Positions 45,875-58,969 of a stretch of DNA of 64,000 bases are shown here, piece after piece; the first letter of the stretch is position 1; every line of letters begins with the position of its first letter. The stretch comes from Cognaticolwellia sediminilitoris (GTDB taxonomy: Bacteria > Pseudomonadota > Gammaproteobacteria > Enterobacterales > Alteromonadaceae): the NCBI GenBank assembly GCA_002104535.1, contig NBOG01000011.1:33904-97903 (forward strand), written 5' to 3'. The notes below the pieces were generated by a model that worked only from the letters and a program-made list of their open reading frames with translations, was not told where the DNA came from and did not search any database. Both the position numbers and the translations under genes were made by a program.

Positions 45875-46090
45875 TTATTTATTGCAACAATTTTGCCCCT
45901 CTTGGATCGGTGGACACTTCACTGTCCCAAATGAGCAATAAACACAGCAATCACCTTTCAGAGGTTTGAGCAGTACTTTGCAAGACTCACATTCATAATA
46001 CCACTGGCATGCATTCGTTGGCATAACTTCTACTTTGCTATAACCACACTCTGGGCAAGTTATAATTGAATTTGGCTCTATATCTGGCAT
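45875..46090 (-). CDS. GDCCVxC-domain zinc-ribbon-like protein of a mer unit
   Basis: This 71-residue cysteine-rich protein has a zinc-ribbon-like part (CPECGYSKVEV and CESCKVLL) followed by GDCCVYCSFGTVKCPP, the GDCCVxC motif found in small proteins of mercury-resistance operons. It overlaps merC by 13 bp. Metal handling or sensing in the cytosol is likely; its biochemical role is not established. Confidence 0.87.
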   Translation of the reverse strand: MPDIEPNSIITCPECGYSKVEVMPTNACQWYYECESCKVLLKPLKGDCCVYCSFGTVKCPPIQEGQNCCNK

Positions 46091-46467
46091 GTTGGTTCCT
46101 TAATAGGTTTTACTATATCTAATACCGACATCACTACCATTAAACAGATACCAAAGTAAAATAAATAGGTACTCCAATTATACTGCCACAAAGGATAAAG
46201 AGTTAATAAGACAGCTATAGGGCCAAATACACTAAGTGCCCCTCGGGGATGATTCTGATTTTTATACCAGTTGTAAACATTTACTATCAAAGCTAACGTG
46301 GCAAATATCGGCAATAAAGTATTTACAGCGATACCCTCAAAGTGTGACAAAAAACCAAGCCCTAAGGCCGATGCTAATGAACCTAGCGCTGGAAAGCATG
46401 CAGTGCAACTAAGGGCGGCTATCCAAACACCGCCAGAACCAACTTTGTCTAAAATTTTATTTATCAT
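46078..46467 (-). CDS. merC: mercuric ion transporter MerC
   Basis: This 129-residue inner-membrane protein has four hydrophobic helices. The MerC cysteine pair lies in the first helix (AALSCTACFPALGSLASALG). MerC imports Hg(II) for reduction or sequestration. It is directly downstream of a MerR-type operator and overlaps the GDCCVxC gene. No merA, merT or merP is present in the window. Confidence 0.88.
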   Translation of the reverse strand: MINKILDKVGSGGVWIAALSCTACFPALGSLASALGLGFLSHFEGIAVNTLLPIFATLALIVNVYNWYKNQNHPRGALSVFGPIAVLLTLYPLWQYNWSTYLFYFGICLMVVMSVLDIVKPIKEPTCQI

Positions 46468-46497
46468 TTTAACGTCTAGTATTGAAAATATGAGTTA

Positions 46498-46529
46498 AGT
46501 ATAAACTCCGTACATGGGTACGGGGTCAA
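46498..46529 (-). promoter_or_regulatory. MerR-type mer promoter/operator
   Basis: On the minus strand, -35 TTGACC (46524-46529) and -10 TATACT (46498-46503) are separated by 20 bp (19 if TTATAC is used). The over-long spacer is typical of MerR promoters. It contains the perfect dyad CCGTAC-N4-GTACGG (46508-46523), the same operator halves as in Tn21/Tn501 mer. It drives merC and the GDCCVxC gene. Confidence 0.9.
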
Positions 46530-46569
46530 TACTGTTTTAAGAAGTCACGATTATTTTAGGGAAACACTA

Positions 46570-46947
46570 TTATTTTAGGGAAGCAATTATAGGGCAGTGT
46601 GATTGGTCATCATTGGTTTTACATGAGTTTGTCATTTCCTTTATGACTTTTTCTAGGCGTTTCAGGTCCGATATTTTGCTCTGAATGATCTTCAACTTTT
46701 GCAAACCTAGCGACTCAACTTTAGAGCAATTACCATCCATCGACATCAGTGAAGCAATTTCTTTAAGGGTAAAACCAAGAGCTTTAGCTCTGCAAATAAA
46801 CTGTAATTGATTAGCGATGGAATCATCATATAGTCGATAACCACTCAGAGGTTTTTGCGGTTGTTTTATGAGGTTTTCTCTCTCATAAAAGCGAATGGTT
46901 TCAACACTTAAATCGAGCGCTTTAGCTAACTTGCCAATTGTTTTCAT
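46570..46947 (-). CDS. merR: mercury-responsive MerR-family regulator
   Basis: This 125-residue protein has a MerR HTH at the N terminus (MKTIGKLAKALDLSVETIRFYERENLI), a dimerisation helix, and metal-binding cysteines in GNCSKVES, TNSCKTNDD and SHCPIIA. Their spacing matches the three Hg-binding cysteines of MerR. The mer operator lies between it and merC on the same strand, so MerR is encoded upstream of, and not divergent to, its target promoter. Confidence 0.9.
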   Translation of the reverse strand: MKTIGKLAKALDLSVETIRFYERENLIKQPQKPLSGYRLYDDSIANQLQFICRAKALGFTLKEIASLMSMDGNCSKVESLGLQKLKIIQSKISDLKRLEKVIKEMTNSCKTNDDQSHCPIIASLK

Positions 46948-47756: not shown

Positions 47757-49127
47757 TCAGAGGTTAATTTGCTGGTCAGACTTTGTTTTCTCAGCAATGC
47801 GAATCGCAAACTCTCCAATAATTAAGGTGACGATAACTCCCGTTAATACAGTCCATTGCATACCTTCTCCTGGTGAGTAGATAAATAAGAAAATAGCGAT
47901 TGTTAATACCGTAATACAAGAGTAAGCAAATAAACGAGCGATTAAAATGCCACCCGGAATTTTATAAGGGCGGACATGATTTGGTTGCTCGATACGGGCT
48001 TTGATAAACGCGAGCAGCATACCAATATAAGGTAACATGAAAATTACGGCACTAAAGGCAAATAGCGCCCAGAATAGATCTTCATTGCTACCGGCTAGAA
48101 AACCGTAAAGTATAATGGTTAAGGTACTGACCAAACCCATCATAATGCTTGCCCCTACAGGAGTGCCGGTTGTTTTACTCTCTTTACCAAATATGGCAGG
48201 TAATTCACCCATTTTAGCAGCTTCTGCTGCCGCACGATTACAACCAAGTGCCCAAGTTACCCCGTTCGAGAAAAAGGTAAATAATGCTGCAATACCTAAG
48301 GTCATCGCAAAGGTTTGACCGGCGACACTTTCACCAAATAAAAGATATAAGGTGTCCATTAGTCCTTCGACTAAGTTGATATCTTGTGCTGGAATTGCCG
48401 CTAGCATAGCAATAGTGCCTAAAATGTATAAAACGATAATAATAGTCGCTGAAATAAGTACGGCTTTTGGCATATCACGCGCAGGGTCTTTCATTTCTTT
48501 ACTACTTGCACTAACGAGTTCGAAACCTAACATGCCGTAAATAATGGCTGGAATATATTGAAAACTTGCGCTCCAATCAGGTTTTAAAGCGGCTAATGAA
48601 AACTCATTCGCCATACCATGTTCTCCAACATAATTAAAAGCGCCGATAATTAAGGCGATAAAAATTAATATTTTAAAAATAGCGCCAGTATCAGGGACAA
48701 AGCGTCCGATATCTAAACTGACAATATTAACTGCAACAGTTATCCACGTTAACGTTAAACCTATGGCTATTTGCCCCAGGAGACTTAAATCTGGAATAAA
48801 CATTTGTTTGAATATACCAGCAAATAAAATACCAATAGCAGGTATCCAAACAGCGGTGTTTATCCAATAACTCCATGACGCTCTTGCTGCCCATCTATTA
48901 CCAAAGGCTGTTTTTACCCAAGCATAAATACCACCTTGCTCTGGGTATGAACATGACATTTCTGCACTGATCAAAGCAAACGGGATAAAAAAGACCACAC
49001 CGAGAAACAACCACCAGAACACGCTAGAAACACCTATAGAGGCAGCTGACGCTAACGTGTCTAATAAAAGAATGGCGGAAACGGTAAAAAGCACCAGATC
49101 TTTTTTACCTAATATTTTTTCTGTCAT
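47757..49127 (-). CDS. APC-family amino acid / polyamine permease
   Basis: This 456-residue protein has 12 predicted membrane helices. APC-superfamily features are GVSSVFWWLFLGVVFFIPFALISAEMSCSYPEQGGIYAWVKTAFG in the first helices and the GMLGFELVSASSKEMKDPARDMPKA loop after helix 6. It imports amino acids or amines. It is divergent from the TonB receptor across two 7-2-7 palindromic boxes, and the whole neighbourhood codes for amine metabolism, so putrescine or a related amine is the likely cargo. Confidence 0.9.
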   Translation of the reverse strand: MTEKILGKKDLVLFTVSAILLLDTLASAASIGVSSVFWWLFLGVVFFIPFALISAEMSCSYPEQGGIYAWVKTAFGNRWAARASWSYWINTAVWIPAIGILFAGIFKQMFIPDLSLLGQIAIGLTLTWITVAVNIVSLDIGRFVPDTGAIFKILIFIALIIGAFNYVGEHGMANEFSLAALKPDWSASFQYIPAIIYGMLGFELVSASSKEMKDPARDMPKAVLISATIIIVLYILGTIAMLAAIPAQDINLVEGLMDTLYLLFGESVAGQTFAMTLGIAALFTFFSNGVTWALGCNRAAAEAAKMGELPAIFGKESKTTGTPVGASIMMGLVSTLTIILYGFLAGSNEDLFWALFAFSAVIFMLPYIGMLLAFIKARIEQPNHVRPYKIPGGILIARLFAYSCITVLTIAIFLFIYSPGEGMQWTVLTGVIVTLIIGEFAIRIAEKTKSDQQINL

Positions 49128-49277
49128 GAATAATTCTCTTTCCTGTATAGCTTAATAGGCGTTTATTTAGAATGCTGCTTATACTGATTGTACACACCAC
49201 AAACTAATAGCCGATTAACTTTTTATGGTTTTATTTTTTTGGGCATTCAGTGTTGCATAAAATAATGCTGATTAAGT

Positions 49278-49293
49278 TACCCCTAAAGGGGAG
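49278..49293. promoter_or_regulatory. 7-2-7 palindromic box 1
   Basis: TACCCCT-AA-AGGGGAG. The left half is an exact match to the NarL-type heptamer TACYYMT, and the right half is its inverted partner. It lies between the divergent permease and TonB receptor genes. Confidence 0.7.
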
Positions 49294-49362
49294 TATTCTT
49301 AATCGCAGATCTTATTTTTACTGTATAGCACTTTCGTTAGTTTATAACGTTATATGCCACCT

Positions 49363-49378
49363 AACCCCTATAGGGGTA
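49363..49378. promoter_or_regulatory. 7-2-7 palindromic box 2
   Basis: AACCCCT-AT-AGGGGTA; the core ACCCCTATAGGGGT is a perfect palindrome. It lies 85 bp from box 1 in the same divergent promoter region. Confidence 0.7.
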
Positions 49379-49521
49379 TGTTCTGAAATAGGTAAATTAT
49401 TTAATCTACCTAAGAACACATAATAAAAGCAAAAATTATAACTATATAAAACACAGTGTCGCACGGTAGTAATGTGCTGTTGCAGTGACTAACTAAAACT
49501 CAAATACAAATAGGTCTAACT

Positions 49522-51810
49522 ATGAATCAAAATTCTAAGCTCATAGCAAATAAGTTATTTAAGTTATCGCCATTGTTTATCGCATTAAGCGTTAATACTG
49601 CGGTAGCGGGCGAAATAGAAGTTATCGAAGTTAAAGTTCAAAAACGTACTCAGTCCGTTCAAGATGTACCTGTAGCAGTATCGGCCTTTAATGGCGACAT
49701 GATGGATCAGTTACGTATTGAAGATGTACGTGGCTTGGTTGATTTAACACCAGGCTTCAGTGGTAAAACTGAAGATAGCTTTATCGATGCGCTTTCTATT
49801 CGAGGTATCGGCACGAATGATTTTGGTATTGGTGGTGATCCTTCGGTTGCTATTTTTACTGATGGCTTATGGGCTGGTCGTAACGGTGGCGTACAAATGT
49901 CATTTTATGATATGGAACGTGCTGAAGTTGTAAAAGGTCCACAAGGGACATTATTTGGCCGTAACGCTATCGCTGGCGGTATTAACATTACTACTAATAA
50001 ACCTATTTCGGACTTTGAAGCAAAAGTTGGCGTAACCATTGCCCAATTTGATACCCAAGAAATTACCGGTATGGTAAACATTCCGTTAACTGACAACTGG
50101 TATTTCCGCGCCGCGGGTAACTTTTCAACTAAAGGTGCTTGGTTAGAAAATGAAGGCGGTGGTGGTGATCTTGGTGGCGGCGAAATTAGCTCTACGCGTT
50201 TATCACTTCGTTATGAAGGTGATGATGTTGATGCAGTATTTCGCGCAACATACGAAGATAGAGATCAAGACCCGTCAATATACTGGACTGAAGGAAGTGG
50301 AGTACCTGAAGACAAAGTTAACATTGATTGGGGTAAGGGCAAAGGTCATGACCGTGGTGAGATCCTTGCACTACAAGCAAACGTAGAATTCACCTTATCT
50401 GATGAGTACTTGTTAACCTCTATTACAGGTTATAAAACTTACGATTTTGATTATTTAGAAGATTATGATGGTCAAGCTGATTTGATTAACAACTATGGTC
50501 AAGACCAAACCGTTGATTATGCTAGCCAAGAGCTACGATTAAACTATCAAGGTGATGGTTCTGTTAATTGGTTTGTTGGCATAAGTGCCTATAAAGAGGA
50601 TGTCGACGCTACTTTCATTAACTCTTATAGCGAAGATGATTTATGTCGTGCGGTATCTATTACAGACGCTGATGATTTTGATGGCCCAGCAGCCGGTTGT
50701 GATGATGAGAACTGGGAAACTTACTGGGAAGATGATATTGACCCAGCAGATATATTAACCAATAAACCAGAAACCAATATTGATATTTTAAAAAATAATG
50801 GTTGGTCTGTTTACGGTGACATTACTTGGGAAGCGACTGAAAAACTTGATCTAACTGTTGGCGGCCGTTACACCAGTGACACCAAAGATATGAGCATTAA
50901 AGTGCTAGATTCAGGTGGCGCATTAGGCAATACCTTTGTATTCGAATGGTACACTGAAGATTTTGTACAAGCAAAAGATACTTGGACCGATTTTACTCCG
51001 CGTATTGCGGGTGTATACCAGCTAAATGACGAAATTAACATTTATGCGAATGCAGCCAAAGGTTATAAATCAGGTGGTTTTTCTACTTTCGGTATTCAAC
51101 ATGACGATTCGCAAGAATATGGCGGCCCATTAGCGGCTGGCAGCAAGCCACTTGCCTTTGAACCTGAAACAACAACAAGCTATGAAATTGGCGCGAAAAT
51201 GATGTTGTTAGAAAAGTCTATGCAACTAAATCTTGCTTACTTCACTTACGATTACCAAGACCTACAAATGATCATATTTGAAGGTGGTTCACAATTAGTG
51301 AAAAATGTTGGTGAAGCTCAAAACCACGGTATTGAAGCTGATGTTCGTTGGACACCTACTGACAACTGGGACTTAAGATTAGCTGGCGCCTGGATGGACA
51401 GTGAAATTACTCAAGAAATTGAAGAAGGTGACGGTACTTTAGGTAATAGCTTACCTATGGCACCTGAATTGAGTGGTTCAATGGTTGCAACGTACTTCCA
51501 TTATATGGATGAAGGTATTGTAACTTTAATTGCTAAATGGGTTTACCAAAGTGAAATTTACGGCGGTCCGGGTAATTATGAAACAGCTAAAGTAGACAGC
51601 TGGAATGAACTAGGTTTACGTGCAATGTACGAAAGCAATGATGAATGGACTGTAAGTCTTTACATCGACAACGTGACCAATGCTGAATACTTTGAACGTG
51701 GCTGGGAAAATGCAGATGCAGACAACACTTATGGTTTTGGTTTACTTAATTCAAAAGTATGGCCAGCTAAACCAAGAACGGTTGGTGTTAGCTTCGATAT
51801 GAGTTTTTAA
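49522..51810 (+). CDS. TonB-dependent outer-membrane receptor
   Basis: This 762-residue protein has a signal peptide (to about AVAG, residue 29). A TonB box-like region (EIEVIEVKVQKR) precedes the plug domain (VPVAVSAFNGDMMDQLRIEDVRGLVDLTPGF; RGIGTNDFG; VKGPQGTLFGRNAIAGGINITTNKP). The 22-stranded barrel follows and ends FDMSF with a terminal Phe. It imports a substrate across the outer membrane using TonB energy. Its location in an amine-catabolism cluster with shared operator boxes suggests an amine or peptide-like cargo; this is inference. Confidence 0.93.
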   Translation: MNQNSKLIANKLFKLSPLFIALSVNTAVAGEIEVIEVKVQKRTQSVQDVPVAVSAFNGDMMDQLRIEDVRGLVDLTPGFSGKTEDSFIDALSIRGIGTNDFGIGGDPSVAIFTDGLWAGRNGGVQMSFYDMERAEVVKGPQGTLFGRNAIAGGINITTNKPISDFEAKVGVTIAQFDTQEITGMVNIPLTDNWYFRAAGNFSTKGAWLENEGGGGDLGGGEISSTRLSLRYEGDDVDAVFRATYEDRDQDPSIYWTEGSGVPEDKVNIDWGKGKGHDRGEILALQANVEFTLSDEYLLTSITGYKTYDFDYLEDYDGQADLINNYGQDQTVDYASQELRLNYQGDGSVNWFVGISAYKEDVDATFINSYSEDDLCRAVSITDADDFDGPAAGCDDENWETYWEDDIDPADILTNKPETNIDILKNNGWSVYGDITWEATEKLDLTVGGRYTSDTKDMSIKVLDSGGALGNTFVFEWYTEDFVQAKDTWTDFTPRIAGVYQLNDEINIYANAAKGYKSGGFSTFGIQHDDSQEYGGPLAAGSKPLAFEPETTTSYEIGAKMMLLEKSMQLNLAYFTYDYQDLQMIIFEGGSQLVKNVGEAQNHGIEADVRWTPTDNWDLRLAGAWMDSEITQEIEEGDGTLGNSLPMAPELSGSMVATYFHYMDEGIVTLIAKWVYQSEIYGGPGNYETAKVDSWNELGLRAMYESNDEWTVSLYIDNVTNAEYFERGWENADADNTYGFGLLNSKVWPAKPRTVGVSFDMSF

Positions 51811-51833
51811 GTCCCCTTAGTTTCTCCTTTTTA

Positions 51834-51860
51834 TCCCTAGGGTTCGCCCTAGGGGCTATT
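51834..51860 (+). terminator. hairpin after the TonB receptor gene
   Basis: CCCTAGGG (51835-51842), TTCG, CCCTAGGG (51847-51854), then GCTATTTTCT. The stable TTCG-capped stem lies 25 bp after the stop. It may allow partial read-through to the glutamine-synthetase-like gene. Confidence 0.7.
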
Positions 51861-51904
51861 TTCTAGGTTAAATTTACTTTAACCCTTATTTTACAGAGAT
51901 AATT

Positions 51905-53251
51905 ATGTCTTTAAGCAATATTGAAATTTTAAATAAATTTCTAAAAGACCACCCTGAAATTGAAGTTTTTGAAGTTATGTTACCGGATATTAACGGTAAA
52001 CTTAGAGGTAAATGGATTGAAAGAAATAATATTTCTAAAGTTTTTGAAGGTGGCCTCAAATTACCGTTAACTGCCATTGCCTTTGATGTTTGGGGAAGAG
52101 ACCCTGACAGCTGGGTATATCAAAGCGGTGACGAAGATGGTGTTTGTATTGCTGATATACGCACGTTAACAACAGTGCCTTGGCTAAAAAGACCTACTGC
52201 ACAAATTATGATGTCGCTAAATGATTTTGATGGCGTTCCATGCCAATATGATGTTCGAAACATACTGCAAAAAATCATGACACGTTTTGATAAGCTTGGC
52301 TTAACCGCAATGCCAGCTTTTGAAATGGAGTTTAGTCTATTTGAACAGCACAATGACGAAAAAGGTCAGCCAGTTCATAGTCAAAAAAGTTCATCGGGTA
52401 TCGATGCAGGACAAACCTATGGTTTAGAGTGTATGCAAGATATGAGTGAGTTTATGCACGGTGTTCGTGATGCATCTAAAGCGCAAAAATTACCTATTGA
52501 TACTTTAATTACCGAAGCTGCACCTTCTCAATATGAAATTAATTTATATCACCAACCAGATGCCTTAGTTGCCTCTGATCAAGCACTGATGCTGCAAAGA
52601 ACCATTAAAGGTGTTGCTAAGCAATTAGACTTACGTGCTTCGTTTATGGCTAAACCATTTGCAGACCTCGCAGGTAACGGTATGCACATGCATTGTAGTT
52701 TACTCGATAAAGACGGAAATAACGCTTTCAATAACGATACCGATGAAGGCAATGACTTGCTTCGTCATGCTATTGCAGGCTGTTTAGCGACCTTAAACGA
52801 TTGTATGTTAATTTTTGCGCCACATTTAAATTCATATCGCCGATTTACTGAAGGTTCTCACGTACCTATGACGGCAACTTGGGGTTATGAAAACCGTACT
52901 GTAGCTTTAAGAGTTCCTGCAGGTAGCCATAAAGCGATGCGTATCGAGCATAGAGTTGCTGGTGCGGACGCTAACCCTTACTTAGTGTCTACGGCCATTA
53001 TCGCAGGCATGCTATACGGTATTGAAAATAAACTTGCTGCACCTGAAGCGATTACAGGCAATGCTTATACTCAAATGCCGGCTAGTTTACCAAATACGTG
53101 GTTGAAATCGATTGAGCACTTTAAGCAATCAAGCTTTATTGCTGAATATTTTGGTGAAGAGTTTCAACGAGTATTTACCGCAACAAAAGAGCAAGAATTA
53201 GCTGTATTTAATAAGCAGATGACTACGCTTGAATATGAAACTTATTTATAA
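51905..53251 (+). CDS. glutamine-synthetase-family ligase, PuuA-like (gamma-glutamylamine synthetase)
   Basis: This 448-residue GlnA paralogue joins glutamate to an amine using ATP. Visible are the beta-grasp start (FEVMLPDINGKLRGKWI), metal/ATP residues in PAFEMEFSLFE, GNGMHMHCSLLDKDG, and the YRRFTEGSHVP and RIEHRVAGADANPYL blocks. Length and divergence from housekeeping GlnA, and the company of a PuuD-like hydrolase, an ALDH and a permease, favour gamma-glutamylputrescine synthetase or a relative acting on another amine. Confidence 0.88.
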   Translation: MSLSNIEILNKFLKDHPEIEVFEVMLPDINGKLRGKWIERNNISKVFEGGLKLPLTAIAFDVWGRDPDSWVYQSGDEDGVCIADIRTLTTVPWLKRPTAQIMMSLNDFDGVPCQYDVRNILQKIMTRFDKLGLTAMPAFEMEFSLFEQHNDEKGQPVHSQKSSSGIDAGQTYGLECMQDMSEFMHGVRDASKAQKLPIDTLITEAAPSQYEINLYHQPDALVASDQALMLQRTIKGVAKQLDLRASFMAKPFADLAGNGMHMHCSLLDKDGNNAFNNDTDEGNDLLRHAIAGCLATLNDCMLIFAPHLNSYRRFTEGSHVPMTATWGYENRTVALRVPAGSHKAMRIEHRVAGADANPYLVSTAIIAGMLYGIENKLAAPEAITGNAYTQMPASLPNTWLKSIEHFKQSSFIAEYFGEEFQRVFTATKEQELAVFNKQMTTLEYETYL

Positions 53252-53254
53252 ATA

Positions 53255-53286
53255 AAAAATGTCGCTATATTTTATAGCGACATTTT
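53255..53286. terminator. bidirectional terminator between convergent genes
   Basis: ATGTCGCTATA (53259-53269) and TATAGCGACAT (53273-53283) form a perfect stem flanked by A- and T-runs. It can serve both the PuuA-like gene and the convergent LuxR-type gene. Confidence 0.85.
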
Positions 53287-53338
53287 ATTGTTAGTTTAGA
53301 TATTGATAGCAGAATCGAGCCGCTATCTATTTTTATCG

Positions 53339-54157
53339 TTACATATAATTAGAAAGCGGATCACCCTCCATATACTCTTCAACACTCATTAGTGAATCAA
53401 TAAATAAGTAAAACAATTCGGACTGTGAATTAATATCAAGCTTGGCATAAGCATGTTTACGGTGAAGTTTTACGGTTTCAACAACGATATTTAATTCTTC
53501 AGAAACGGTTTTTGTGGTGTAGCCATGCAAGATCAAATGCACTACTTGTTTTTCTCGTTGAGTTAAAACAGAAGCGCCAAAATGATCTAAAGCATGTTGC
53601 ATTCTTGCTCTGATATTTGGACTTTGATCTTCTGTCGCCGCTTGGCTCCAGTGTTGTTGACATATTTTTTCAATTAGCGGAGTTATATCTTTAAGCAGGG
53701 TTAATTCTTTTTTAGAGAAGTTTTTCAATTCACCTGTTCGGCCGACCGATATGTTAAGAAAGTCATTATTTGGCAGTGAAATAAGGTAACCACACTCATC
53801 TTTTAAGCCTGAGTTAGAGTACCACGTTCGATAGTACTCAGTTTGTTTAAAGCCGGCGGGAGTAATGGCCTTAAAATGAACGAATCCTCGTTGCTGTTTT
53901 TGGGTAGCCACAAGGTAAAAAGGGTCGATTAAAAAGGCGCCCTTAACGAACAGGTCGATATTTTTACTACCACCTTTCTTTGGGTCATCAAAATATTCTA
54001 GTTTCGGTAAAGCAGAATGACGAAAAAGTATGATCGTAACATCGTTGCTTTCAACGAGTAGTTTTAATCCTGAAGCGAGTTTTTCGGGTAAACTTGAATC
54101 TGATAAATCATCAATCCAATTTGCTGTAATTTCAGCTATTTGCGCAATATTAGACAT
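53339..54157 (-). CDS. LuxR-type (NarL/FixJ HTH) regulator of the amine cluster
   Basis: This 272-residue protein has a C-terminal LuxR/GerE HTH at about 195-250 (LTQREKQVVHLILHGYTTKTVSEELNIVVETVKLHRKHAYAKL). The N-terminal domain of about 180 residues is not a receiver, since no Asp pocket is seen; it may bind a small ligand. It is the only regulator inside the cluster. The 7-2-7 boxes of the two divergent promoter regions match the DNA form recognised by this HTH class, so it is the best candidate regulator. Confidence 0.87.
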   Translation of the reverse strand: MSNIAQIAEITANWIDDLSDSSLPEKLASGLKLLVESNDVTIILFRHSALPKLEYFDDPKKGGSKNIDLFVKGAFLIDPFYLVATQKQQRGFVHFKAITPAGFKQTEYYRTWYSNSGLKDECGYLISLPNNDFLNISVGRTGELKNFSKKELTLLKDITPLIEKICQQHWSQAATEDQSPNIRARMQHALDHFGASVLTQREKQVVHLILHGYTTKTVSEELNIVVETVKLHRKHAYAKLDINSQSELFYLFIDSLMSVEEYMEGDPLSNYM

Positions 54158-54393
54158 TTGTTTTCAACACATTTATTCGATACCTTACTATAAATACTAT
54201 TGTTGTGATTACAAGAGCAGCACTAATATTTAAGGTATATTTTTTTAGTTTTTAGCAGGCGTTAACTTAGTCGTCAACGCTAATGGAAAGGCTTGGCTAT
54301 TATTTTATAAATTATTTACAACGTACACATAAATATCATCAAATATAACTTATTGTTTTTTTAATTAACTATTGAGGGACTTGCGTGTGATGC

Positions 54394-55131
54394 CTAAGCC
54401 GTATTGCCACCATCTATAGAAATAGTCGTGCCGGTAATTTGGGCAGCAATATCAGATGATAAATAAAAAGCCAGTGCAGCAACCTCTGAAGGCAGGGTAA
54501 TACGACCGGTTGGACTGTCTGAATTATTGCTAATCATTGCTTGGTCATAATCGACTTGTCGCTGAGCAGCTTCAGTTTTCAACATCGGAGTATCAACATC
54601 GCCCGGACAAATAGCATTTACAGTCACACCTTGTCCAGCATGATCAAGTGCCATTGCTTTTGTCATTAATACTAAACCACCTTTACTGGCACAATAGGCT
54701 AAGGCATCTTTTCCGCCCATTAGCCCCCAGTCAGATGCAACATTAATGATTGAGCCTTTACTTTTAATTAGTGCAGGCAGTGCGGCTCTGCTAAGGTAAA
54801 AAGGTGCTGACAGATTGGTCGCTATCGAGTCATGCCACTGTTCATCAGTGGTGTTATTAGCGTTATATCGGTAAATAATGCCAGCATTATTGATTAGTGT
54901 ATCGATACGGCCAAATTCTTTTAGCGCCAGTTTAATAATATCATTACAATTTTTTGAGTTGGTTATATCACCAATCCAAGCTTTGGCATTGGGTTTGTTT
55001 TCAATGGCAAGTTGTGTACGTTTTTCGTCGCGTCCAACTGCAATAACGTTATAATTATTATCAGAATAAGTATTGACTAAAGCCTTACCAATTCCAGAGC
55101 TTGCACCTGTAATGATCACACATTTTTTCAT
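54394..55131 (-). CDS. short-chain dehydrogenase/reductase
   Basis: This 245-residue SDR has the cofactor motif TGASSGIGKAL, NNAG in LINNAGIIYR, catalytic Ser in INVASDWG and the YxxxK motif YCASKGG. A classic SDR end ITGTTISIDGGNTA follows. Cofactor preference and substrate are unclear; Asp/Arg near the second strand (VGRDEKR) is compatible with NADP. It lies between the LuxR gene and the aminotransferase, separated from the latter by a terminator. Confidence 0.9.
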   Translation of the reverse strand: MKKCVIITGASSGIGKALVNTYSDNNYNVIAVGRDEKRTQLAIENKPNAKAWIGDITNSKNCNDIIKLALKEFGRIDTLINNAGIIYRYNANNTTDEQWHDSIATNLSAPFYLSRAALPALIKSKGSIINVASDWGLMGGKDALAYCASKGGLVLMTKAMALDHAGQGVTVNAICPGDVDTPMLKTEAAQRQVDYDQAMISNNSDSPTGRITLPSEVAALAFYLSSDIAAQITGTTISIDGGNTA

Positions 55132-55201
55132 TATTTATTCTCATTTATGTTTATATTGTTTTTCAGCTCAGTAATACCAATCGGATTATTATGTTGGATA
55201 T

Positions 55202-55236
55202 AAAAGGCCAAACTTAATTCAGTTTGGCCTTTTTGG
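55202..55236. terminator. bidirectional intrinsic terminator
   Basis: AAAAGGCCAAACT (55202-55214) and AGTTTGGCCTTTTT (55221-55234) pair fully with runs on both sides. It lies just past the aminotransferase stop on the minus strand, so the SDR gene probably has its own promoter. Confidence 0.87.
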
Positions 55237-55242
55237 TAAATT

Positions 55243-56607
55243 CTATACTTTAATACCGTAATGTTTAGCTGTGTAATCTAAAGCGATAGTTAAACGAGTA
55301 ATAAGTAGGTCAATTTCTTCCCTTGAACAAACCATAGGCGGTGCAGTGACTATGGCATCACCGACCGAACGTACCATCAAGCCGTGATTAATAGCATGGG
55401 TTTTAACCATTGCACCACCAGCGCAATCAGGCGCTAAACGCTCTTTAGCAGATTTGTTTTTAGCAATTTCAATTGCTGCAACCATGCCCATGCCACGAAC
55501 TTCACCAACAATTGGGTGATCTTCCAAGGTGCGAAGCTGTGCTTGAAAATAAGGCATAATATCTGCAGCTGCGTTTTCTATAACTTTGTCATTCTTTAGA
55601 ATATCAATAGTTGCAATACCTGCAGCACAAGCAGCAGGGTGACCAGAGTAGGTAAAGCCGTGGGTAAATTCGCCGCCGTTAGCCGCTAATACATCAGCAA
55701 TTTTATCGCTAACCATAACGCCGCCTAGTGGTTGGTAACCATTAGTTACTGCTTTTGCGAAGGTCATTAGATCAGGTTCGTAACCGAACGTTTGAGCACC
55801 AAACCAGTCACCGGTGCGGCCAAAACCACAAATAACTTCATCGCTGATCAATAGAATGTCACGTTCTTTACAAATGCGAGAAATTTCAGGCCAGTAAGTT
55901 TCTGGTGGCACAATAACGCCACCTGCACCTTGAATAGGTTCAGCGATAAAGGCGGCAACATTTTCTTCGCCAATTTCATCAATCTTAGCCGCTAACTCTT
56001 GCGCCACTTTAAGGCCAAATTCGCCCTTATCCATGTCGCCACCTTCAGTAAACCAGTTTGGCTGACCAATGTGTTCTACGTAACTAAGACCGGTGTATTG
56101 CTTATGCATACCGTCAAAACCACCAAGCGACCCAGCAGCAACGGTAGAACCATGGTATGCACCATGACGACTGATGAAAACTTTCTTGTTCGGTTTGCCG
56201 AGTAAATCATAGTAACGGTGAACCAAACGAATGTTGGTATCGTTGGCTTCTGAACCAGAATTTGTAAAAAATACATGATTAAATTGCGCGGGAGAAATAT
56301 CGACAAGTGCTTGCGCCATTTGTACAGAAACATCGGTAGCACATTGGAAAAAGCTATTATAAAAAGGCAGTGTATTTAATTGCTTATTAATTGCTTCATT
56401 AATCTTTGGTTGGCTATAGCCTAAGTTACAACACCAAAGGCCAGACATACCATCTAGCAGCTGTTTGCCTTCTTCGTTGTATATATAGATGTGTTCAGCT
56501 TTTGTATAGATAGCAGTCTTTGTCGCTTTATATTCTTTAAAGTCAGTAAATGGATGTAAAAAATGTGCTTTATCTAATTTTTGTAATGCTGTAGTGTTTG
56601 AATTCAT
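55243..56607 (-). CDS. class III aminotransferase (putrescine/omega-amino type)
   Basis: This PLP enzyme of about 454 residues has HPFTDFKEY near the start, LLDGMSGLWCCNLGY, FFTNSGSEANDTNIRLV, SRHGAYHGSTVAAGSLGG, LISDEVICGFGRTG and the Schiff-base Lys in MTFAKAVTNGYQPLGG. It belongs to the SpuC-like/omega-transaminase group that moves amino groups from putrescine, spermidine fragments or beta-alanine to pyruvate. ATG 56607 is chosen with GAGGTCAG upstream. In this cluster it may replace the amine oxidase PuuB. It is divergent from the PuuD-like gene across two box-like sites. Confidence 0.9.
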   Translation of the reverse strand: MNSNTTALQKLDKAHFLHPFTDFKEYKATKTAIYTKAEHIYIYNEEGKQLLDGMSGLWCCNLGYSQPKINEAINKQLNTLPFYNSFFQCATDVSVQMAQALVDISPAQFNHVFFTNSGSEANDTNIRLVHRYYDLLGKPNKKVFISRHGAYHGSTVAAGSLGGFDGMHKQYTGLSYVEHIGQPNWFTEGGDMDKGEFGLKVAQELAAKIDEIGEENVAAFIAEPIQGAGGVIVPPETYWPEISRICKERDILLISDEVICGFGRTGDWFGAQTFGYEPDLMTFAKAVTNGYQPLGGVMVSDKIADVLAANGGEFTHGFTYSGHPAACAAGIATIDILKNDKVIENAAADIMPYFQAQLRTLEDHPIVGEVRGMGMVAAIEIAKNKSAKERLAPDCAGGAMVKTHAINHGLMVRSVGDAIVTAPPMVCSREEIDLLITRLTIALDYTAKHYGIKV

Positions 56608-56646
56608 TTCTGACCTCATCTCTTTGTATACTATAGGGTAGCGCGA

Positions 56647-56662
56647 CTACTCTAAAGGGTTA
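56647..56662. promoter_or_regulatory. 7-2-7 box 3 (degenerate)
   Basis: CTACTCT-AA-AGGGTTA keeps the centre CT-AA-AG and an AGGGNTA right half but has a weaker left half. It lies 40 bp upstream of the aminotransferase start, in the divergent region. Confidence 0.45.
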
Positions 56663-56720
56663 TAGCCGCATTTGTTCTGTTCATGTCTAATAGTTTCACA
56701 TAAAAACTGCTCTATTGGAT

Positions 56721-56736
56721 TACCCCTAAAGAGTTG
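56721..56736. promoter_or_regulatory. 7-2-7 box 4
   Basis: TACCCCT-AA-AGAGTTG. The left half is identical to that of box 1. It lies 20 bp upstream of the GTG start of the PuuD-like gene, which supports that start over the longer frame beginning at 56672. Confidence 0.6.
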
Positions 56737-56755
56737 CATGAGGAGAAAAGCTAAG

Positions 56756-57550: not shown

Positions 57551-58969
57551 ATGAAAGATTATCGAAAATTTTATATTAATGGCGCTTGGGTTAATCCAAC
57601 TGTTGCACGTGATTTCCCGGTAATAAACCCGGCAACCGAGCAAGAAATCGCTATTATTTCATTAGGTAATAGCACTGATGTTGATATGGCGGTTTCTGCT
57701 GCTCGTAAAGCATTTAGCACTTATGGTTTCAGCAGTGTTGAGCAACGCATTGCTTTATTAGAAGCATTACTAAAGCAGTATATGGATAATTATGATGCCA
57801 TGGCTCATGCTATTTCATTGGAAATGGGCTCGCCAATTGACTTTGCCATTGCTGCACAAGCCGATTGTGGTAAAGGCCATATTGAGAGCACATTAGCGGC
57901 TTTGAAAGAATTTGAATTTGAACGTCAGCTTGGTAATGCCACCATCGTCAAAGAGCCGATTGGTGTTTGTGGCTTTATTACGCCATGGAATTGGCCTATT
58001 AACCAAATTGCCTGCAAAGTAGCTCCAGCGCTTGCTACCGGTTGTACTATGGTATTAAAGCCGAGTGAAATTGCACCGTTATCGGCACAGCTATTTACGC
58101 AAATGATTCATGATGCGGGCTATCCTGCCGGTGTTTATAATATGGTTAATGGTGATGGTATGGGCGTTGGTTCAGCTATTTCGTCACATAAAGATATTGA
58201 TATGGTGTCATTCACCGGTTCAACTCGTGCTGGTATCGCTATTGCAAAATCAGCGGCCGATACCGTTAAAAGGGTGGCACAAGAGCTTGGTGGAAAATCA
58301 CCGAATATCATCTTAGATGATGCAAATATTGAAAAGGTTGTTAAACGAGGTGTCCTAGGTTGTATGAGTAATACCGGACAATCATGTAATGCGCCAACAC
58401 GCATGCTGGTTCCTGCTAGTCAGTACCAAAAAGCTATTGAGATTGCTAAAGCTACTCTCGACAGTGTTAAAGTTGGTGATCCTGCTAAAAGTGGCAACCA
58501 TATCGGACCATTGGTCAGTGAAATGCATTTTAATAAAGTGCAAAGCATGATCCAAATGGGTATTGATGAGGGCGTGACTTTACTCGGTGGCGGTGTTGGA
58601 AAACCTGATGGTTTCGAAACTGGCTACTTCTGTAAACCAACTATTTTTACCGATGTTAGTAATGACATGACGATCGCACAAGAAGAGGTCTTTGGCCCTG
58701 TTTTAGTGATGATCCCTTATGAAGGTGATGAGCAAGCGATAGAAATTGCTAACGATACGCCATATGGTTTAGCAGCACATGTGCATTCTGAAGATATTGA
58801 CAGGGCTAAACGTGTTGCACGAAAAATCCGTGCTGGCATGATCAGCATTAACGGTGCGTCGCACTATTATTCATCTCCGTTCGGTGGTTATAAACAGTCG
58901 GGCAATGGTCGTGAGTGGGGCGAGTTTGGCTTTGATGACTTCCTAGAAATTAAAGCGATTAATAGCTAA
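57551..58969 (+). CDS. aldehyde dehydrogenase of the amine pathway
   Basis: This 472-residue NAD(P)-dependent ALDH has Glu in AQELGGKSPNIIL and nucleophile Cys in NTGQSCNAPTRMLVP. ICGFITPWNWPINQIACKVAPALATGCTMVLKPSE is the coenzyme-binding block, and SPFGGYKQSGNGREWGEFG is near the end. In the Puu route the corresponding step oxidises gamma-glutamyl-aminobutyraldehyde to gamma-glutamyl-GABA. The 9-bp gap to puuD shows one operon. Confidence 0.92.
   Translation: MKDYRKFYINGAWVNPTVARDFPVINPATEQEIAIISLGNSTDVDMAVSAARKAFSTYGFSSVEQRIALLEALLKQYMDNYDAMAHAISLEMGSPIDFAIAAQADCGKGHIESTLAALKEFEFERQLGNATIVKEPIGVCGFITPWNWPINQIACKVAPALATGCTMVLKPSEIAPLSAQLFTQMIHDAGYPAGVYNMVNGDGMGVGSAISSHKDIDMVSFTGSTRAGIAIAKSAADTVKRVAQELGGKSPNIILDDANIEKVVKRGVLGCMSNTGQSCNAPTRMLVPASQYQKAIEIAKATLDSVKVGDPAKSGNHIGPLVSEMHFNKVQSMIQMGIDEGVTLLGGGVGKPDGFETGYFCKPTIFTDVSNDMTIAQEEVFGPVLVMIPYEGDEQAIEIANDTPYGLAAHVHSEDIDRAKRVARKIRAGMISINGASHYYSSPFGGYKQSGNGREWGEFGFDDFLEIKAINS

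Follow-up and report, generated by a model that had tools for sequence, protein, structure and literature searches.

Which protein, if any, reads the short mirror-image boxes that stand in front of an amine-related gene cluster in Cognaticolwellia sediminilitoris, and what would its binding bring about? The boxes lie in a stretch of 64,000 nucleotides (hereafter the window; G000:C3:33904-97903, from a 3.84-Mb genome in 31 contigs), in which an initial annotation had picked out three of them together with a weaker fourth, and had proposed that a regulator encoded inside the cluster binds them. The present analysis points to the same protein: with a probability of roughly 0.8, the four boxes are operators of the regulator encoded at 53339-54157, which would respond to a ligand and activate an amine-catabolism regulon in class II fashion, and the boxes would probably switch on four gene sets for the uptake and breakdown of a polyamine-like amine. 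The boxes, with their scores on a motif matrix from other genomes, and the regulator are as follows.

49278..49293, - strand: operator box 1, TACCCCTAAAGGGGAG, read on the - strand CTCCCCTTTAGGGGTA; matrix score 20.4; predicted activator site of the permease promoter
49363..49378, + strand: operator box 2, AACCCCTATAGGGGTA; matrix score 17.0; predicted activator site of the TonB receptor-glutamine synthetase operon
56721..56736, - strand: operator box 3, TACCCCTAAAGAGTTG, read on the - strand CAACTCTTTAGGGGTA; score 15.2; predicted activator site of the aminotransferase-SDR (short-chain dehydrogenase/reductase) operon
56647..56662, + strand: operator box 4, the weakest, CTACTCTAAAGGGTTA; score 13.1; predicted activator site of the PuuD-aldehyde dehydrogenase operon
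53339..54157, - strand: regulator, 272 aa; LuxR solo with an N-terminal VqsR-type ligand-binding domain (about 1-175) and a C-terminal GerE helix-turn-helix (HTH; 196-249)

The boxes in the window and the motif in other genomes

The three boxes named in the initial annotation were found where it had placed them (49278-49293, 49363-49378 and 56721-56736), and the fourth, for which it had given no coordinates, is most likely the site at 56647-56662 with its matrix score of 13.1. Matches to TACCCCTNNAGGGGTA with at most three mismatches number five in the window, against 1.05 expected, and this count was reached in none of 100 shuffles; the remaining two of these matches (44885 and 48150) are intragenic and score below 11 on the matrix. 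Exactly four window sites score at least 13 (49278, 49363, 56721 and 56647), all of them in the two divergent promoter regions to which the boxes had been said to be confined, a statement that holds within the window; the next site, if a one-base-shifted reading of 49278 is ignored, scores 11.6. The placement of box 3 at the aminotransferase gene is the same as in orthologs, and box 4 has a counterpart, CTACACTATTGGGTTA, in locus L027, where the 74-bp spacing between the boxes is identical.

The motif itself can be obtained without the window. Relatives of the regulator were collected from public genomes as 80 loci, most of which come from Halieaceae and Porticoccaceae and some from Marinomonas and other groups; their regulators are almost without exception 40-50% identical, and one locus (L047) comes from a close Colwellia relative, all others being distant. 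The nearest named relative found was a Colwellia metagenome-assembled genome with a regulator 86% identical. From these loci 157 non-redundant promoters of regulator and cluster genes, the window excluded, were submitted to a palindrome-constrained expectation-maximization motif search with random starts. The best motif was TACCCCTATAGGGGTA, with a log-likelihood gain of 311, compared to 118 for the best unrelated solution and 36-39 for shuffled promoters; the box of the initial annotation was thus recovered blind. Among the promoters from which the motif was learned, a box above 99% of the null occurs at 31/31 aminotransferase, 23/27 TonB receptor and 17/24 glutamine synthetase-like genes, and, likewise in-sample, at only five of the 80 regulator promoters, all five of which are divergent with an aldehyde dehydrogenase gene. 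The regulator-bearing loci contain 73 sites scoring at least 14, against 6 in shuffles. The NarL-like layout suggested earlier is also seen in the de novo motif, since TACCCCT-AT-AGGGGTA amounts to two inverted TACYYMT-like heptamers with a 2-bp spacer; TACYYMT is the heptamer consensus of NarL, and TACCCCT fits it.

The regulator and its co-occurrence with the box

The C-terminal part of the regulator matches GerE (PF00196) at residues 196-249 with an E-value of 1.6e-14, the sole Pfam family above cut-off, and a GerE HTH is present in 54/54 homologs; VqsR has a C-terminal HTH of the LuxR type as well. Within the recognition helix, ETVKLHRKH, residues K230, L231 and K234 are invariant in the 54 homologs; in our own alignment we take them to correspond to K188, V189 and K192, the contact residues in the NarL helix STVKVHVKH, with L231 replacing V189. 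Residues D78-P79 are likewise invariant in the regulator homologs. No receiver was found among the families listed for the 54 homologs at E-values up to 1. Instead, residues 9-175 match 5XHX by profile (E 7e-25), and 5XHX is the ligand-binding domain of VqsR from Pseudomonas aeruginosa, according to the entry title and PMC9144697. The structure model of the regulator (pLDDT 84.6) gave a Foldseek match to 5XHX at 2e-10; aligned with VIA-align, the modelled domain resembles the VqsR ligand-binding domain with a Z-score of 19.9 and a root-mean-square deviation of 2.6 over 163 residues, whereas other LuxR-type receptors score lower on the model (RhlR Z 15.4, LasR 13.8). As modelled, the N-terminal domain is a LuxR-type ligand-binding fold of the VqsR type and not a receiver. 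Both features that had been ascribed to this protein from its letters, an HTH of the NarL/LuxR class and a non-receiver input domain, are therefore supported by profile and fold. No LuxI-like synthase was found in a search that covered the scanned cluster genes and no other part of the genome.

The box travels with the regulator, as the initial annotation had asked to be checked. Of 30 genomes in an order-wide sample that encode an aminotransferase at least 59% identical to the protein of locus L052, 22 have an ortholog of the regulator (E-value of about 3e-85 or better) and 8 do not; one of these 8 has a more distant paralog instead. With a box called at scores of at least 12, the aminotransferase promoter is boxed in 20/22 genomes with the ortholog and in 0/8 without it (Fisher p 8e-6, kinship ignored); when six genomes whose sequences overlap with the training set are removed, the counts are 14/16 and 0/8 (p 6e-5, kinship ignored). 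The association extends to genes in trans. In Porticoccaceae the regulator adjoins unrelated genes (in L099, for example, those for a cytochrome oxidase subunit and a ClpB-like protein), and the regulator stretches fetched are mostly without a box; in genomes of this family with an unlinked regulator, it is the distant aminotransferase gene that is boxed, with scores of at least 14.8 in 6/8 genomes and 12.9 in one more. Alteromonadaceae-type relatives, with regulators 42-45% identical, carry the box in the divergent promoter of the regulator and an aldehyde dehydrogenase gene. Among regulators that are at most 36% identical, the same-genome paralog in L045 included, none has a clear box at its own promoter; a few scattered sites do occur in loci L031, L034, L035 and L045. 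For aminotransferase homologs in the window's own family that lack a close regulator, 10.4 is the highest score.

For the refuting condition set by the initial annotation, boxes in genomes without the regulator, placement matters. Boxed aminotransferase promoters were found in 0/8 genomes that lack the ortholog; isolated consensus matches do occur in such genomes, and a bare match with at most one mismatch is present in 58/148 genomes of the family, so that the literal form of this test needs promoter context. Searches of viral contigs found no relative. A class-wide search for regulator and aminotransferase together proved too sparse for use.

The paralog in L045 (G000:C26:275600-295500) is a second VqsR-like regulator in the same genome, about 31% identical, whose neighbors encode a permease (54% identical), an aldehyde dehydrogenase, a class III aminotransferase, a DUF3422 protein, an FAD oxidoreductase and a TonB receptor. 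None of these amine-type genes has a box of the present type, so the second regulator probably reads another site.

Promoter geometry and the predicted mode of action

The boxes stand at a fixed distance from predicted promoter elements, of which the window contains four.

49249..49254, - strand: AACACT (TGC before it), predicted -10 of the permease promoter; fixed offset from box 1
49402..49407, + strand: TAATCT, predicted -10 of the TonB receptor promoter; fixed offset from box 2
56686..56691, + strand: TCTAAT, predicted -10 of the PuuD promoter; fixed offset from box 4
56692..56697, - strand: GAAACT (TGT before it), predicted -10 of the aminotransferase promoter; fixed offset from box 3

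When box instances are read in the direction of the gene, with start sites as predicted, a -10-like hexamer is found best at +39 from the box start (pooled z 5.7; 1.9 for the next best offset), and the same offset emerges separately from the promoters of the aminotransferase, of the TonB receptor, and of the aldehyde dehydrogenase, permease and PuuD genes taken together (z 4.4, 4.6 and 4.7). The -10 hexamer lies 23 bp beyond the box end; assuming a 17-bp spacer, the -35 position begins right after the box, whose center falls at approximately -43. With a box that abuts the -35 and a -10 at fixed distance, the boxes have class II activator geometry with respect to the predicted start sites. All four window boxes fit the +39 rule, and their opposite-direction readings are less convincing; with one convincing direction per box, the four boxes would serve four transcription units. 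The predicted promoters of the permease and the receptor are arranged back to back. Those of the aminotransferase and PuuD genes (56640-56740) are interleaved, each box lying past the predicted start of the other gene, with the 74-bp spacing kept in L027; the two promoters would consequently compete.

From this arrangement, and from the company that the box keeps, we infer binding by the 53339-54157 protein and activation rather than repression. The regulator would most likely act as a dimer, each GerE HTH reading one TACCCCT-like heptamer of the 7-2-7 palindrome, and its VqsR-type N-terminal domain would respond to a small molecule, which is probably either the amine taken up or an early breakdown intermediate. 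Positioned at about -43 and abutting the -35, the protein would recruit RNA polymerase to promoters whose -35 is weak or missing and whose -10 is often TGN-extended. One box each would act on the permease gene, on the genes for the TonB receptor and the glutamine synthetase-like enzyme, on those for the aminotransferase and the SDR oxidoreductase, and on those for the PuuD-like hydrolase and the aldehyde dehydrogenase; with one box for each of four transcription units, import and catabolism would be switched on together.

Several observations weigh against this interpretation. Where aminotransferase and glutamine synthetase genes are divergent, the one box between them is in most cases 6-70 bp away from the glutamine synthetase start, too close for class II activation of that gene. 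The p-values that connect box and regulator are uncorrected for the relatedness of the genomes; two of the 22 regulator-bearing genomes carry a low-scoring box (7.9; CCACCCCTTTGGGTAC, at the usual place), and in G053, where the aminotransferase gene stands apart from the regulator, there is a weak candidate site of 11.9 in an odd place. Finally, the 3.84-Mb genome holds 36 sites of the degenerate consensus, compared with 41 of a reversed control, so that sequence alone does not define the regulon. The genome scan that had been recommended at the outset bore out the proposal in that the strong, promoter-placed sites found are those of the cluster; a genome-wide consensus search was dropped as proof of operators for its lack of specificity. 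Six of the eight best off-cluster sites are intragenic, one lies between the 3' ends of convergent open reading frames, and the remaining one stands in front of an open reading frame with no fitting -10; the regulon is probably local.

The regulator could also bind the boxes as a repressor that is released by the amine, and the positions close to the glutamine synthetase start would suit such a derepression mechanism, just as a protein beside the -35 could block the polymerase as well as recruit it. This alternative is unlikely: a box at the -35, a fixed distance to the -10, and -10 hexamers that are often poor or TGN-extended constitute a class II activator arrangement, LuxR-type regulators at about -42 are mostly activators, and the regulator promoters are mostly boxless (5/80 boxed), unlike those of typical local repressors. 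Another GerE/NarL-family protein, for example a NarP-like or CrbR-like response regulator, might bind the boxes instead, the VqsR-like regulator merely co-occurring with them; the fit of TACCCCT to the NarL consensus would allow this, and the genome encodes several full-length NarL-family response regulators (the best at 140 bits). It appears quite improbable nevertheless, since no protein of the genome reaches the NarP cut-off of 343 bits, and since orthologous aminotransferase promoters are boxed where the VqsR-like regulator is present and not where it is missing (20/22 vs. 0/8), also when the two are unlinked. CrbR (ErdR) was ruled out as owner of the motif: the ACTU motif of its acetate regulon, an imperfect inverted repeat needed for activation by this two-component regulator, has a different published core with sites such as TACTACCATCGTCGAAT (PMC5715377), ACY-NN-RGTC-like and read by a kinase-paired regulator, compared to CCCY-WW-RGGG here. 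That the boxes are chance palindromes, or terminator or attenuator hairpins, and not protein-binding sites is highly improbable in spite of the near-consensus matches in 58/148 family genomes, because the 2-base center appears too tight for an RNA loop, the sites lie upstream of predicted starts and keep their place and -10 distance while the flanks diverge, and no site exceeds 10.4 at family aminotransferase homologs that lack a close regulator.

The amine cluster and related systems

The genes of the cluster, apart from the regulator, are listed here.

47757..49127, - strand: APC amino acid/amine permease, similar to gamma-aminobutyrate (GABA)/glutamate antiporters
49522..51810, + strand: TonB-dependent receptor
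51905..53251, + strand: glutamine synthetase-like enzyme, near the models for gamma-glutamylputrescine synthetase and GS III without reaching either cut-off
54394..55131, - strand: SDR oxidoreductase
55243..56619, - strand: class III aminotransferase, near the polyamine:pyruvate and putrescine aminotransferases; exceeds the cut-off of subfamily PRK07480
56738..57541, + strand: PuuD-like gamma-glutamyl-GABA hydrolase (Peptidase_C26); its start codon is ATG 56738 or GTG 56756 and not TTG 56672 of the listed open reading frame
57551..58969, + strand: aldehyde dehydrogenase

Judged by these predicted functions, the gene set would suit a pathway that breaks down a polyamine-like amine and has a gamma-glutamylated branch; the glutamine synthetase-like protein falls below the cut-offs of the named families. 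The polyamine pathways SpuC/Pau of Pseudomonas and Puu of Escherichia coli, the latter with PuuR, are similar in that they combine an aminotransferase, a glutamine synthetase-like ligase, an aldehyde dehydrogenase and a PuuD-type hydrolase; the present cluster differs from both in the class of its regulator and in its TonB-dependent receptor. At the operator, there is a resemblance in form to NarL and NarP, which share the 16-bp inverted pair of TACYYMT-like heptamers with 2-bp center and a GerE HTH with corresponding recognition-helix residues; NarL, however, has a receiver domain where the present regulator has a LuxR-type ligand-binding domain. The position of the boxes recalls class II promoters of LuxR and the lux box, with the activator box near -42 to -43 at the -35, yet the lux box is a 20-bp palindrome of other sequence, in contrast to the 16 bp with an ACCCCT-WW-AGGGGT core found here.

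VqsR, whose N-terminal domain is alike in sequence and fold, has been studied as a quorum-sensing and virulence regulator (PMC6610081); the 53339-54157 regulator goes with amine-catabolism genes instead. PjeR and PolR, subgroup E LuxR solos of fluorescent pseudomonads, adjoin polyamine transport genes, and a polyamine response has been proposed for them, although the promoters tested in that study were unresponsive to putrescine, spermidine and spermine (PMC8546723). Class and gene context, LuxR solos at polyamine genes, are the grounds for likening them to the present regulator; the text of PMC8546723, when searched, describes no operator for PjeR or PolR. In the open-access literature on LuxR regulators of amine catabolism, this was the one related proposal found, and no account of the operator described here was encountered.

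LuxR solos are common and often come without a known ligand or target. It is conceivable, at somewhat less than even odds, that the regulators collected here represent a widespread marine branch of VqsR-type LuxR solos, unrelated to quorum sensing, which senses an amine or a breakdown product and activates a conserved regulon for amine uptake and catabolism via a NarL-like 7-2-7 box. If so, the part that VqsR plays in quorum sensing would be an offshoot within a family of metabolic sensors. The present results also raise the prospect that nitrogen metabolites are sensed by domains like that of VqsR, and they should assist in predicting how marine Gammaproteobacteria turn on the use of polyamine-type nitrogen. 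With a motif matrix, a fixed geometry and a target list for one clade, ligand screens become possible with a defined reporter.

In L027 (14434-15168), from an 81% relative, the SDR gene follows the aldehyde dehydrogenase gene and is not beside the aminotransferase; its product is 60% identical, and with this different position the SDR gene seems exchangeable within the cluster. A single box near the glutamine synthetase start codon is found in L052 (16600-16800), and similarly in L062, L072 and L073. In the Halieaceae locus L052 (3589-5109 and 10849-12441), the neighborhood of the regulator includes a gene for a carotenoid oxygenase of the RPE65 type; the regulator is followed directly by a TPR-sulfotransferase gene and then by a boxed TonB receptor gene. 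Elsewhere in the window, small genes at 46078-46947 appear to encode a MerR-type regulator and a membrane protein resembling mercury-transport proteins, as judged by eye from the translation.

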